From: Propionicimonas sp.
Lineage (GTDB): Bacteria > Actinomycetota > Actinomycetes > Propionibacteriales > Propionibacteriaceae
Assembly (NCBI GenBank): GCA_013791955.1
Contig: VMSW01000007.1
Coordinates: forward strand, 682,001-746,000
Reading direction: 5' to 3'
DNA: 64,000 nucleotides
The position numbers were made by a program, and so were the translations under genes. This document shows positions 5,949-11,473 of this stretch, in pieces; position 1 is the first letter of the stretch, and every line of letters starts with the position of its first letter. The notes under the pieces are model-generated. The model was not told where the DNA came from. It worked only from the letters and a program-made list of their open reading frames with translations, and made no database searches.

Positions 5949-5973
5949 CCACCACCAGGTCCGTCCCCCTGAG

Positions 5974-6029
5974 CTGCGCAGAGGAACCGTCCCCGATGGG
6001 CAGCGCACGGGGACGGTTCCTCTGCGCAG
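5974..6029. repeat. Long perfect palindrome, 22-bp arms, 12-nt loop
   Basis: The arms 5974-5995 and 6008-6029 are exact reverse complements separated by 12 nt. The outer part reads GCGCAGAGGAACC. A palindrome with related arms and the same loop length lies at 23469-23528. Here it is between convergent genes and could act as a bidirectional terminator, but the related copy is between divergent genes, so a dispersed repeat is also possible. Confidence 0.85.
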
Positions 6030-6202
6030 TTCGGCGTGGAACCGTCCCTGGGGGGCGCAGGTCAACGACTGGTCGGGGCTCGTCGCTGTCAGGCAACCCA
6101 GCCGACAGCTGCGAACCGCGCCGTCCCAACAGTCGCGACGCGCCCCCCAGAGAGCGGGCTCAGGGGGTCGTGCTCTCCCGCATCACAGCGGGATGTTGCC
6201 GT

Positions 6203-6251: not shown

Positions 6252-7514
6252 TCAGGCGGTCTGGTTGGCGTTGGTTACGACGACCGCCACATTGGCGCCG
6301 CCGAAACCGAAGGAGTTGTTGAGCGCGGCCAGGTCGCCCTCGGGTAGCGGACGGGCGACGTTGGCGGCAATGTCGATGCTCAGATCGGGCTCGGGGTTCT
6401 CGAGGTTGATCGTCGGCGGCACCAGGCGGTCGTGGAGCGCCATAACCGTGGCGATGGTCTCCAAGGCGCCGGCGCCGCCGAGCAGATGCCCGGTCATCGA
6501 CTTGGTGGAGGTCACCACCACCTGATCGGTGGCCGCGCCCAGCGCGTTGCGGATCGAGCCGGCCTCGGTCAGATCGCCTTGTGGGGTGGAGGTGCCGTGG
6601 GCGTTGACGTGACGGATGTCGGCGGCGGTCAGCCCGGCGTTGGCCAGCGCCTTCTGCATCGCCTTGGCCTGCCCAGCCCCGGACGGATCGGGCTGGACGA
6701 TGTCATGGCTGTCGGCGCTGATTCCCGACCCGGCCAGGGTGCCGTAGATCTTGGCCCCGCGGGCCAGGGCGTGCTCGAGGGTCTCGATGACCAGCACCGC
6801 GGCGCCCTCGCCCATGACGAAACCGTCCCGGTCCCGATCCCAGGGACGCGAGGCGCGCTCGGGCTCATCGTTGCGGCGGCTGAGCGCCTGCATCTGGCCG
6901 AAGGCGGCCATCGGCAGCGGATGAATGGTGGATTCGGTGCCCCCCACGACGGCGATCTCGGCGCGACCAAGCCGTAGCTGGTCGATGCCCAAGGAGATCG
7001 CTTCGTTTGAGGAGGCGCAGGCCGAGACCGGGGTGTGGACGCCGGCCTTGGCATGGATCTGGATGCCCACATTGGAGGCCGGGGCGTTGGCCATCAGCAT
7101 CGGAATGGTGAAGGGGCTGACCCGGCGGTAGCCCTTGTCGCGATGGTTGTCCCAGTTGTTCAGCAGCGAGTGCAGGCCGCCGATGCCGCTGGCCAGGGAG
7201 ACCAGCAAGGTTTGGGGGTCGACGTCCACGCCTTCTTCGGCGTCCCAGTCGAAGCCGGCATCGCGCCAGGCTTCCTGGGCGGCGACCAGCGCCAGTTGGG
7301 TGGAGCGATCCAGACGTCGGGCCTTGACCCGGTCGATCAGTTCAGAGGGGTCGACGGCCACCTTTGCCGCGATCCGAGCCGGAAGTTCGGCGGCCCACTC
7401 TTCGGTGATCAGGCTGACGCCCGATCGGCCGGCGAGCATGCCCGCCCAAGTGGAAGCCAGGTCGCCGCCCAGTGGGGTGGTGGCGCCGAGTCCGGTGATC
7501 ACAATCTCAGTCAT
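6252..7514 (-). CDS. fabF: 3-oxoacyl-ACP synthase II (KAS II)
   Basis: A 420-residue condensing enzyme that elongates acyl-ACP with malonyl-ACP in type II fatty acid synthesis. The thiolase-fold triad is visible: Cys in SACASSNEA, His in NAHGTSTPQGD and His in MTGHLLGGAGA. The start ATG at 7514 has GGAG upstream. It is the last gene of the fasR-fabD-fabH-acpP-fabF operon, separated from acpP by 131 bp that contain a hairpin, which may set a lower level of FabF relative to ACP. Confidence 0.96.
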   Translation of the reverse strand: MTEIVITGLGATTPLGGDLASTWAGMLAGRSGVSLITEEWAAELPARIAAKVAVDPSELIDRVKARRLDRSTQLALVAAQEAWRDAGFDWDAEEGVDVDPQTLLVSLASGIGGLHSLLNNWDNHRDKGYRRVSPFTIPMLMANAPASNVGIQIHAKAGVHTPVSACASSNEAISLGIDQLRLGRAEIAVVGGTESTIHPLPMAAFGQMQALSRRNDEPERASRPWDRDRDGFVMGEGAAVLVIETLEHALARGAKIYGTLAGSGISADSHDIVQPDPSGAGQAKAMQKALANAGLTAADIRHVNAHGTSTPQGDLTEAGSIRNALGAATDQVVVTSTKSMTGHLLGGAGALETIATVMALHDRLVPPTINLENPEPDLSIDIAANVARPLPEGDLAALNNSFGFGGANVAVVVTNANQTA

Positions 7515-7645: not shown

Positions 7646-7888
7646 TCAGCTGTGCGCCTCGATGTAGGCGACGGCGTCGCCTACGGTCTTGAGGTTCTTG
7701 GACTCCTCGTCGGGGATGTTGACGCCGAACTTCTCCTCGCAGCCGACGAGGATCTCGACCATGGCCAGGCTGTCGACATCAAGATCGTCAACGAAGGACT
7801 TGTCCAGCTGGACGTCCTCTACCGGGACCCCGGCTACCTCGTTGACGAGTTCAGCGAGCTGAGCGCGGATCTCTTCGGTGGTGGCCAT
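7646..7888 (-). CDS. acpP: Acyl carrier protein
   Basis: An 80-residue acidic ACP. The phosphopantetheine attachment site is Ser40 in the motif DVDSLAMVE. I chose the ATG at 7888 (MATTEEIR) because AAGGAG lies directly upstream; an in-frame upstream ATG would place that site inside the gene. It carries the growing acyl chain between FabD, FabH and FabF, whose genes flank it in the same operon. Confidence 0.96.
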   Translation of the reverse strand: MATTEEIRAQLAELVNEVAGVPVEDVQLDKSFVDDLDVDSLAMVEILVGCEEKFGVNIPDEESKNLKTVGDAVAYIEAHS

Positions 7889-7948
7889 CTGTTTCTCCTT
7901 TTTCATTCTTCTTTTTGGGTTGCAACGATTCCGGCAGTAGCCGGTGGT

Positions 7949-8941
7949 TCAGGGAAGGGTGATCACTTGGCCGGCGTAAACCAGGCCAGCGCCGAAGCCG
8001 ATGATCAGGGCAGTCTGGCCACTCTTGGCCTCGCCGCTGGTGAGTAGGGCATCCATCGCCATCGGAATGGTGGCGGCGGAGTTGTTGCCCAAGTGGGTGA
8101 TGGTGCGGGCGACGACGACCTTCTCCGGCAGCTTCAGGTAGCGAAGCAGGGTGTCGGTGATCCGGTTGTTGGCCTGGTGCGGGATGAACACGTCCAGTTC
8201 TTCGGGAGAAATGCCAGCCTCGTCCAGGCAGCGTCGGGCGGCCTTGGCGATGTAGCCGGTGGCCCACTTGAATACGGCCTGACCGTCCATCTGAATGGTG
8301 GGGAACACGCCAGCTTTGACGCCACTGCCGATGGTGTGGTTCATCCGGATGGCGTCGTATTGACCGCCGTCCGAGCCCCAAACGACCGGGCCGATGCCGT
8401 TGGTCTCGCTAGGTCCGAGCACTACCGCGCCAGCGCCGTCACCGAACAGGAAGGCGGTGCCGCGATCGGTGAGATCGGTGATGTCGGAGATGGTCTCGCC
8501 CGCAACCAGCAGGACGTAGGTGGCCTGCCCGCCGCGGATCATGGCCTCGGCCTGGGCGAGGCCATAGCTGAAGCCAGCACAGGCTGCGGAGATGTCGTAG
8601 GCGGCGGCATCTCCCAGGCCAAGCTGGTGAGCCAGCTTGGGGGCCAGCGCCGGGGTCTGCTCGTAATGGGAGATCGTGGCGACGATCACCGCATCGATCT
8701 GATCCAGTGCCACCCCGGAGCGCTCAATGGCGCTGGTCGCGGCGGTGACGCAAAGGGTCTCGATGTTCTCGCCCTCACCCACCCAGCGGCGTTCCTTGAT
8801 ACCGGTGCGCTGAGTGATCCACTCGTCGGAGGAATCGATGAACTGGCACAGGTAGTCGTTGTCGATCACCCGGGACGGGGTGGCAGAGCCCACCGCGAGG
8901 ATCCGGGCGAAAGGTGAACCAATGCTGGCTTTGAGGCTCAT
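7949..8941 (-). CDS. fabH: 3-oxoacyl-ACP synthase III (KAS III)
   Basis: A 330-residue enzyme that starts fatty acid synthesis by condensing an acyl-CoA primer with malonyl-ACP. The catalytic Cys is in ISAACAGFSYG, His in FIPHQANNR and Asn in HLGNNSAAT. The ATG at 8941 overlaps the fabD stop as ATGA, so translation is coupled. In actinobacteria FabH often accepts branched primers; that cannot be decided here. Acyl carrier protein follows 60 bp downstream. Confidence 0.96.
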   Translation of the reverse strand: MSLKASIGSPFARILAVGSATPSRVIDNDYLCQFIDSSDEWITQRTGIKERRWVGEGENIETLCVTAATSAIERSGVALDQIDAVIVATISHYEQTPALAPKLAHQLGLGDAAAYDISAACAGFSYGLAQAEAMIRGGQATYVLLVAGETISDITDLTDRGTAFLFGDGAGAVVLGPSETNGIGPVVWGSDGGQYDAIRMNHTIGSGVKAGVFPTIQMDGQAVFKWATGYIAKAARRCLDEAGISPEELDVFIPHQANNRITDTLLRYLKLPEKVVVARTITHLGNNSAATIPMAMDALLTSGEAKSGQTALIIGFGAGLVYAGQVITLP

Positions 8942-10146
8942 GAGGCTGCTCCTGCGGAGTCGTGGGCCGGGTAGAGGCGGATCAGCGGCTGGCCAGGGGC
9001 CACCGGGTCGCCGTCCTCCACCAGCCATTCGGTGATGGTGCCGGAGTGGGCCATGCCCACCTCGATTGTGTTGCGAAGGTTGGACACGGTGCCGATTGCG
9101 GCTCCCGCCTCCAGCCGTACCCCTACGTCGACGCCTTCAGCAGCATGGAACTCGCCCTTACCGGGGGAGACCACCAGCATCCAGGAGGGCGTGGAGTTCA
9201 ACAGGCTTACTGAAGCGCCGTCGCCGTGCTTGGCGACGAACTCCTGCGCTGCCGGAATCTGATCGGGGGTGTTGAGGCTGAACAGTTCAACGCCCTTGAG
9301 GTTGCGCTTGGCGATGCCGGCCAGCGTGCCAGCCGGCGGCAACTCGAGCAGCCCGGTGACCCCGAGGTCGGCCATGGTCTGCAAGCAAAGGTCCCAGCGG
9401 ACGGGGTTGGCTACCTGCTTGACCAGGCGACCCAGGTATTCCCGACCCGACTGGACGACCTGGCCGTCGGCATTGGAGAGCAGCCGGGTGCGGGGGTCGT
9501 GGGTGGTGATGGCCCGCGATAGCTGCGCAAGGTGCGCTACTGCTGGCTCCATGTGGACGGTGTGGAAGGCGCCAGCCACCGAAAGTTGGATCAGCCGAGC
9601 CCGTGCTGGCGGGTTGGCCTGCAAAGCGGCGAGTTGCTCGACGGTGCCGGCCGCGACGATCTGGCCGGTGCCGTTGTTGTTCGCGGCGGTGAGGCCATTT
9701 GCCTCAATGGCTGCCATCACTTCGTCGGCGTCGCCGCCGATCACGGCCATCATTGAAGTCGGCAGGGTCGCGCTGGCAGCAGCCATCTGCTGGCCGCGCT
9801 CCCGGACGAACACCATTGCCTGTTCGGCCGAAAGGATGCCCACGGCGGCTGCGGCGGTGATCTCACCGACACTGTGACCGGCGGCCACGCCGGTGCGCTG
9901 GAAGCCGTCTGCCGGCTGGGGGAACAGCTCAAGGGCGGCCACCAAGCCGGCGGCGACCAGCAGCGGCTGAGCGATCGCAGTGTCGCGGATGGTTTCGGCA
10001 TCAGCTTCGGTGCCGTAGTGGGCCAGATCGAGCCCAGCGACGGTAGAGAGCCACCTAAGTCGGTCGGCGAAACGGGGTTCAGCCAGCCAAGGGCCGAGGA
10101 ACCCTGGGGTTTGGGCGCCCTGTCCGGGCGCGACGATTGCGAGCAC
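8938..10146 (-). CDS. fabD: Malonyl-CoA:ACP transacylase with C-terminal biotinyl/lipoyl-like domain
   Basis: The first ~310 residues are a typical FabD: opening LAIVAPGQGAQTPG, nucleophile Ser92 in GHSVGE and His in GAFHT. It loads malonyl groups onto ACP. The last ~75 residues (about 8941-9168) resemble a biotin carboxyl carrier fold: SPGKGEF, a central turn, then SGTITEWLVEDGDPVAPGQP, but the MKM biotinylation site is replaced by NLRN and no lysine is present there. The protein is therefore about 90 residues longer than usual FabD. I prefer the GTG at 10146 because the family starts there; a GTG at 10194 is also in frame. Neither has a good ribosome site. Confidence 0.92.
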   Translation of the reverse strand: MLAIVAPGQGAQTPGFLGPWLAEPRFADRLRWLSTVAGLDLAHYGTEADAETIRDTAIAQPLLVAAGLVAALELFPQPADGFQRTGVAAGHSVGEITAAAAVGILSAEQAMVFVRERGQQMAAASATLPTSMMAVIGGDADEVMAAIEANGLTAANNNGTGQIVAAGTVEQLAALQANPPARARLIQLSVAGAFHTVHMEPAVAHLAQLSRAITTHDPRTRLLSNADGQVVQSGREYLGRLVKQVANPVRWDLCLQTMADLGVTGLLELPPAGTLAGIAKRNLKGVELFSLNTPDQIPAAQEFVAKHGDGASVSLLNSTPSWMLVVSPGKGEFHAAEGVDVGVRLEAGAAIGTVSNLRNTIEVGMAHSGTITEWLVEDGDPVAPGQPLIRLYPAHDSAGAAS

Positions 10147-10213
10147 GAGACCACTGTGTCGAATCTCGGACGCAGACCCGGCGTCGGACGCCACGAAAAA
10201 CCGGGGGCGCGAT

Positions 10214-10279: not shown

Positions 10280-11473
10280 TCAGTCGAGGAGCCGTCCAAG
10301 GCTCAGTGCTAGCCGCAACGCGTAGCCGTCGCGGGCATCGGTCGGTGAATAGCCGGTGACCTCTTGCACCCGCCGCAGCCGATAGCGGACGGTGTTGGCG
10401 TGGACGAACAACTCCCGCGAGGTCGCCTCGATCGATCCGGCGGTGTCGAAATACGCCGAAAGAGTGGCCACCAAATCACCGCCGGCAGCGACCAAGGGTT
10501 GGTAAAGCTCACCGGCCAGGGCGCGGCGGGCGTGGCCGTCACCGGCCAGCGCACGCTCGGGCAGCAGCTTCTCTGCCGCCACCGGACGAGGGGCATCTGG
10601 CCAGGCGCGGGCGGCGCGTAGGCCAGACAGAGCGCTGCGGGCGCTGCCAGCGGCGTCCATCAGGCTGGCCACGATCGGGCCGACGACCACATTGCCGGGC
10701 CCGAAAGCGTCGACGAACTCGGCCACGAGGCTGACCAACTGATCGATGGTGGTGGCGCTGGTGCCGATCACCAGCACCAGTCGATCTCCCTGTTGGGCTG
10801 CCAGCAGATCCAAGGAGTTGCGACCGGCAGCAGCCCGAATCGACTCCACAGCGGCCCCTGGGTCGGCCGGTGTCGGGCCGATCACCACTGCTACTCCGGG
10901 GCTGGGGGAGACCCAGCCAAGCGTCGAGGCCCGCGAAACCACCGATTCATCGGCGTCGCCGCGAATGATCGCGTCCACCACCATTGACTCCAGACGGGCG
11001 TCCCAAGCGCCGCGGATCTCAGCGGCACGGGCGTAGACCCGGGCGGCGGCGAAGGCCACTTCCCGGGAGTAGCGCAGGATGCCGATTCGCAGTGGCAGTT
11101 GCTCGTCGGCGGGCAACTCGGCGATCCGTTCCTCAACGGTTTCGATAGTGGTCAGCACCAGGTCGACGGTCTGGTTGAGGGTGATGCGCCGGGTGAGGGC
11201 GCGAGGGGCGGCCGCGAACAGCGCACCGGGGTCACCCTCGCCACCGGAGGTGAACCAGGTGACGAAGCCGTCGATACCGGAGCGGGCCACCAAAGTGACC
11301 CAGGAGCGATGCTCGGCCTCCAGTTGAGCAAACCACGGATGCTGGTCGGCAATACGGGCCAGCGCGGCGGTGGTCAGTTCGGCAGAGAGCTCGGTCAGGT
11401 CTTTGGCGATTACCGCCCGAGCTTCAGTTGAGGGCCACCAGGCTCTTTCGGCGGCGGTGGTTTGCGGAGTCAC
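10280..11473 (-). CDS. fasR: PucR/CdaR-type helix-turn-helix regulator, FasR-like
   Basis: A 397-residue regulator with a C-terminal PucR helix-turn-helix of the form VHANTVRYRLRRVQEVTG followed by RLALSLGRLL. The N-terminal part is a sensing region with a GGDEF-like middle. Its place directly upstream of fabD-fabH-acpP-fabF is that of Streptomyces FasR, the activator of that operon, so the same job is likely. The GTG start overlaps the stop of the DUF1801 gene (GTGA). The symbol rests on gene order and domain type, not on a search. Confidence 0.82.
   Translation of the reverse strand: MTPQTTAAERAWWPSTEARAVIAKDLTELSAELTTAALARIADQHPWFAQLEAEHRSWVTLVARSGIDGFVTWFTSGGEGDPGALFAAAPRALTRRITLNQTVDLVLTTIETVEERIAELPADEQLPLRIGILRYSREVAFAAARVYARAAEIRGAWDARLESMVVDAIIRGDADESVVSRASTLGWVSPSPGVAVVIGPTPADPGAAVESIRAAAGRNSLDLLAAQQGDRLVLVIGTSATTIDQLVSLVAEFVDAFGPGNVVVGPIVASLMDAAGSARSALSGLRAARAWPDAPRPVAAEKLLPERALAGDGHARRALAGELYQPLVAAGGDLVATLSAYFDTAGSIEATSRELFVHANTVRYRLRRVQEVTGYSPTDARDGYALRLALSLGRLLD

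Follow-up and report, generated by a model that had tools for sequence, protein, structure and literature searches.

A lysine-less biotinyl-like domain fused to FabD in Actinomycetota, a candidate docking module for acyl-CoA carboxylase

The malonyl-CoA:ACP transacylase (FabD) encoded in a 64,000-nucleotide stretch of a Propionicimonas sp. genome (contig VMSW01000007.1, positions 682,001 to 746,000; hereafter, the window) has an otherwise normal MCAT core that carries a fused C-terminal tail, and residues ~320-393 are predicted with high confidence to adopt the biotinyl (barrel-sandwich) fold. The tail represents a family spread over the phylum and is not an oddity of a single protein. We tentatively read it as a pseudo-BCCP interaction module, most likely one that tethers FabD to acyl-CoA carboxylase via a flexible linker; this reading is plausible and falls somewhat short of an even chance.

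The features of the region are listed in Table 1. The window fabD is a single unbroken frame on the minus strand (8938-10194) with two candidate starts, GTG at 10194 and GTG at 10146. The latter start (giving 402 aa) is the likely one, because a stop codon separates the two positions in two relatives (L003 and L005). The TGA of fabD shares bases with the ATG of fabH (8941-8939). The first-pass annotation, made from the letters of the window, had raised a frame error near 9170 as a possible origin of the tail; none was found, since the frame is unbroken up to the overlap with fabH. An origin of the tail in a frame error or a mis-called start was ruled out by the intact frame, this overlap and the stop codons of the relatives. 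The gene order (PucR-type regulator, fabD, fabH, acyl carrier protein gene, fabF) is what we take to be that of a normal actinobacterial fab operon, and the regulator is presumably FasR-like, judging by its position. Downstream of fabF, at window positions ~5950-6065, motifs such as ELRRGTVP and GTVPLRSS recur in frames of either strand, and an inverted DNA repeat may be present there.

Table 1. Features of the fabD region (positions are those of the window)
Feature	Position	Strand	Evidence or remark
FabD catalytic core, residues 1-308 (malonyl-CoA:ACP transacylase)	9223..10146	-	Pfam Acyl_transf_1, E 1.4e-19
Linker, residues 309-319	9190..9222	-	pLDDT <50 at 314-317; length differs between relatives
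Lysine-less biotinyl-like domain (predicted), residues 320-393	8968..9189	-	Profiles, predicted fold, conserved residues
Hairpin tip NLRN, residues 356-359	9070..9081	-	R358 codon 9073-9075, at the position of the carriers' modified lysine
C-terminal tail, residues 394-402	8941..8967	-	Predicted disordered; pLDDT <50 at 396-402
fabH	7949..8941	-	NCBIfam fabH, 347.4 bits; start overlaps fabD stop (ATGA)
Acyl carrier protein gene	7646..7906	-	NCBIfam, 124.4 bits
fabF	6252..7514	-	NCBIfam fabF, 488.6 bits (cut-off, 493.75)
PucR-type regulator upstream of fabD	10280..11473	-	Pfam HTH_30 and GGDEF_2

With Foldseek, the top match of the FabD core was the MCAT structure 1nm2 (E 3e-42; 56% identity over 308 columns). 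S92, R117, H195 and Q244, which we take to be the catalytic residues of FabD, are invariant in the FabD alignment (47 sequences). The NCBIfam fabD model gave 160.1 bits for the window FabD, under its cut-off of 260.9 bits, and the identification as FabD therefore rests on the operon and the fold.

The last 78 residues alone matched the Pfam Biotin_lipoyl model with 22.3 bits (cut-off, 22.1), and the score was below the cut-off when the whole FabD (18.8 bits) or a 92-residue piece (21.9 bits) was used as the query. The same 78 residues matched NCBIfam PRK07051 with an E value of 2.3e-9; the tail scored far under the cut-offs of the NCBIfam carrier models. When the 47 FabD domains were searched singly (E <= 0.01), 46 matched Biotin_lipoyl and all 47 matched PRK07051. 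The profile built from these 47 domains matched 1o78, a transcarboxylase biotin carrier, at E 1.6e-13 (1.8e-8 for the best single stretch) and was nearly as strong on an E2 lipoyl protein (6.2e-13) and a membrane-fusion protein (1.9e-12). The AlphaFold models had a pLDDT of 93.5 for full-length FabD (pTM 0.81) and of 88.0 for the domain alone. In the Foldseek search with the domain model, the first eight matches were all BCCPs, the TM score (target) was 0.80-0.90 for the first six, and 5gua, 2evb and 1bdo were among the top matches. The first-pass annotation had described the tail as a BCCP/lipoyl-like domain, to be checked by structure prediction with a structure search, by a profile search and by a survey of relatives; the description was borne out by the profiles, the predicted fold and the BCCP matches. 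The domain that it delimited is real, but the start lies about 7 residues earlier than was given there, at the conserved P320/W322 (window 9189). The low pLDDT at residues 314-317, together with the pTM of the full-length model, suggests that the linker is a flexible tether.

In the domain-profile alignment, R358 falls in one match state with the lysine of the motifs AMKM, SMKM, TDKV and TAKS of the carriers encoded in the same genome, and the annotation was right that the tip reads NLRN, with no lysine. The residue at the tip position was R in 42, Q in two, and D, S or G in one each of the 47 aligned FabD sequences, and R in 37 and Q in four of the 41 named loci with the domain (from the best 80 of 576 relatives), with no K in either set; note that the two sets overlap in organisms, and the arginine counts (42/47 and 37/41) are not independent. 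No lysine-bearing copy was seen inside the FabD group, either among these sequences and named-locus rows or in the domain tree (see below). Because the modified lysine is missing, a role of the tail as a biotin carrier appears very unlikely from the sequences. The earlier proposal of a fused, non-carrier biotinyl-like module on FabD is thus supported by the profiles, the fold and the lysine counts (0/47 and 0/41).

The conserved residues of the FabD domain are W322, W374, R390 and P393. W374 was found in 45 of the 47 FabD domains and in none of the 26 comparison carriers, and R390 in 46/47 against 4/26; W322 was also present in 45/47, although the carriers are mostly gapped there, so that the contrast is weak. 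These carriers were picked for K at the tip, and the absence of arginine at their tips (0/26) is by construction. The window FabD has M323 and Y392 where most relatives have R and H, respectively.

The survey covered the class and other classes within the phylum. In the class, a full-length FabD search gave matches in 380 of 393 sampled genomes at E 0.001, some of them weak, and the domain-profile search gave the FabD-type domain in 113 of the 393 (73.5-134.2 bits). In 108 of the 113 genomes the domain lay in an open frame of at least 390 aa; the other five lay in shorter frames (G308, G252, G345 and G047 at a contig end, and G223 beside a run of N). The 47 sequences that were read, which represent 27 family groups, confirmed the fusion. 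Inside the class the gap in bit scores was clear (FabD domains, >=73.5; three ordinary class matches listed, <=43.1), and outside the class there was no such gap.

Among the named loci (the best 80 of 576 relatives), 41 had the domain, including those of Propionicimonas, Nocardioides, Kribbella, Jiangella, Phytoactinopolyspora, Actinocrinis, Actinospica, Micromonospora, Salinispora and Blastococcus. Among the same 80, the domain was not found in the loci of Streptomyces, Kitasatospora, Actinomadura, Arthrobacter, Terrabacter, Kineosporia and Tessaracoccus, where the FabD match ends at 304-336, and one further Kribbella locus (L131) was without it as well. The domainless FabD of Streptomyces fildesensis (L134) has SLPLIHPAAEEE near its end, which recalls the last strand of the domain and is perhaps a relic of it, or chance. 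Two metagenome bins titled Bifidobacterium breve (L113 and L132) have a FabD like that of uncultured actinobacteria, and the titles look wrong. Several genomes of one group in the same order (G026, G124, G134, G242 and other f3 g3 genomes) gave only weak matches to the window FabD; in G026 the open frames that hold the matches are 3217 and 3710 aa long, which suggests a large multidomain synthase.

Outside the class, eight copies fused to FabD and 11 clear separate genes directly downstream of fabD were found. One sample consisted of 30 genomes picked for a domain match, and thus gives no prevalence figure; it contained six fused forms (L230-L235), six separate forms (L243, L246, L253, L255, L256 and L257) and a weak separate candidate (L236, 19 bits). 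A second sample of 30 genomes, hand-picked among those unlisted as domain-matching and likewise giving no prevalence figure, had a FabD match in 23 genomes, with one fused form (L259), three separate forms (L274, L278 and L279) and a weaker candidate upstream of fabD (L263, 31 bits). The best domain matches outside the class add G573 and G592 (separate: L203 and L218) and G671 (fused: L211). In L287 (G560), the separate domain gene overlaps fabD by four bases. The tip column was without K in all 19 fused and separate forms, the hairpin was shortened in six of the eight fused forms, and L256, L274 and L278 carry a K no more than two residues from the tip column, outside any carrier motif. Outside the class R358 is not conserved; the tip of the hairpin is shorter or of another form there, so that no single feature of the tip is conserved.

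In G498 (L297, 3405-11990), the carboxylase and fatty acid synthase genes are interleaved in an apparent supercluster, accA-[candidate]-fabD-accC-accB-fabH-fabG-accD-acp-fabF. Pfam confirmed accA, accD and the lysine-bearing biotinyl gene; fabD, accC, fabH, fabG, acp and fabF were identified by inspection. The candidate between accA and fabD is weak, lysine-less and without a Pfam match. In the other clusters that were read, the recognised neighbours were fab genes and not carboxylase genes.

The domain tree (80 rows) has a branch, with an SH-aLRT value of 98, that parts 29 lysine-bearing rows and the doubtful L236 from the 50 others; the FabD-linked rows, both fused and separate, lie on the side of the latter. 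The tree was built on 72 columns with many inner forks unresolved, and the label of lysine-bearing stands for any K near the tip, by which L220 (the same sequence as L256) was mislabelled. As for the exceptions, the weak separate form L236, on a long branch, falls among the carriers, and L219 (G450) and L222 (G602), which are biotinyl-like, without the usual tip motif and without an adjoining FabD, fall on the FabD side with long branches. The upstream candidate L263 is likewise weak and long-branched, and neither it nor L236 is used in the argument. Apart from these few long-branched rows, the FabD-linked forms appear in this tree as one family apart from the lysine-bearing carriers. The capture of an ordinary BCCP beside fabD was considered and rejected, as the FabD-linked forms are without K at the tip and lie apart from most of the K-bearing rows.

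On the FabD-core tree (124 rows), the label for presence or absence of the domain switches no fewer than 19 times, and 11 changes for the label of absence are forced by the well supported branches alone; such counts cannot separate gain from loss. A comparison of L013 with L008 revealed an in-frame gap that spans the domain, the start of the linker and the last codons being kept and the rest of FabD being intact, and we read this gap as a clean in-frame loss of the domain in a relative. Because FabD persists without the domain in close relatives, the domain is accessory. Within the genus, the 36 pairings of nine sequences gave a median dN/dS of 0.31 in the domain and of 0.11 in the core, by which the constraint on the domain is real but weaker than that on the core.

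We infer that the tail binds a protein, because a carrier-like fold has been kept with FabD in one family, either fused or as a neighbouring gene. The carboxylase would be the partner, since the fold naturally pairs with it and it produces the FabD substrate, with a precedent in the plant BADC proteins (see below). According to this model, the tail would be a docking module of biotinyl fold without the biotin lysine that tethers FabD, on a flexible linker, to acyl-CoA carboxylase; malonyl-CoA, the product of that enzyme, could then be used or controlled near its site of synthesis. In other classes the docking module would be a separate small protein encoded right after fabD. Carboxylase docking would fit the kinship with the carriers, the separate gene by fabD and the G498 supercluster with its weak member. 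The coupling would not be essential, as many FabDs are without the domain and relatives have lost it. No complementarity was seen with the carboxylase epsilon subunit AccE (PF13822), which is present in 351 of the 393 class genomes. The wider proposal, that an ancient actinobacterial pseudo-BCCP family, with fused and fabD-adjacent members in several classes, physically couples acyl-CoA carboxylase to malonyl-CoA:ACP transacylase as a bacterial counterpart of BADC, is possible but rather doubtful.

Three other readings were weighed. The module might dock within the fatty acid synthase, binding ACP or FabH and helping to pass malonyl-ACP on with no part for the carboxylase, which we consider unlikely. 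Outside the class, fabH is next on the same strand after the module in all eight fused and nine of the 11 separate forms (the contig ends first in L253 and L278), in the window the start of fabH overlaps the fabD stop, and the conserved basic residues R358 and R390 could meet an acidic ACP; however, the adjacency of fabD and fabH persists in domainless relatives such as L028 and L029, R358 is not conserved outside the class, and we know of no preference of the biotinyl fold for ACP. A structural role, in which the module would cap the core of FabD, stabilise it or bring about dimerisation of FabD, seems quite improbable: W322, W374, R390 and P393, which lie near the ends of the domain sequence or on strands that may adjoin them, could from the topology face the core, but the linker pLDDT (<50 at 314-317) and the pTM of 0.81 with a pLDDT of 93.5 suggest that the domain has no fixed placement, the module exists as a separate protein outside the class, and the clean loss in a related species left the rest of FabD intact, all of which makes a fixed cap less likely. 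That the tail is left over from an old fusion, weakly constrained and on its way out, would agree with a domain dN/dS above that of the core and with the many absences on the FabD tree, including one clear excision, but is more improbable still, given that some residues are conserved in 45-46 of the 47 sequences, which span 27 family groups, that dN/dS is well under 1 and that other classes keep the association with FabD through a gene of its own.

The textbook enzyme FabD has, in 113 of the 393 sampled class genomes, a conserved extra domain that ties the biotin-carrier fold of the step making malonyl-CoA to the enzyme that uses malonyl-CoA. The tail could offer a handle on the channelling or control of malonyl-CoA at the junction of carboxylase and FabD, in a group that supplies many polyketides and lipids, and close relatives that differ in having the domain form natural pairs in which its role can be tested. 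If true, the coupling would be a built-in link between the two committed steps of fatty acid synthesis. The first-pass annotation had remarked that the fusion seemed undescribed; likewise, no description of a FabD-biotinyl fusion was found among the open-access papers listed (titles and abstract openings), where absence is not proof, and no such fusion is named in the excerpts of PMC3199775 and PMC6922389.

The actinobacterial MCATs 1nm2 and 2qc3 (Mycobacterium tuberculosis) are 48-56% identical to the window FabD in the core, but the solved chains (302-320 residues) have no C-terminal domain. Weak profile or fold matches to the tail were obtained with HlyD/MFP adaptors, CphZ and succinylglutamate desuccinylase-like hydrolases, of which the barrel-sandwich domains are, to our knowledge, without a carrier lysine. 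The partner proteins and pathways of the HlyD/MFP adaptors and CphZ-type hydrolases are unrelated to FabD. The tail resembles the BCCP and transcarboxylase 1.3S carriers in profile (1o78) and fold (5gua, 2evb and 1bdo), and differs from them in having no lysine at the tip and in forming a separate branch in the domain tree. The plant BADC (biotin attachment domain-containing) proteins, in the excerpts of two reports, are without the biotinylation motif and serve to assemble the carboxylase or to regulate it (PMC11926652, PMC7712654). As described there, they are stand-alone, non-catalytic subunits of the plastid acetyl-CoA carboxylase that are reported to bind carboxylase subunits; like them, the FabD tail is BCCP-like, has no biotinylation motif and stands at the malonyl-CoA step of the fatty acid pathway. 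Unlike BADC, the FabD tail is bacterial and is fused to FabD or encoded beside it, and its putative link with the carboxylase is suggested by gene context in one genome (G498); the two have the fold in common, with no evidence of a common origin beyond it.
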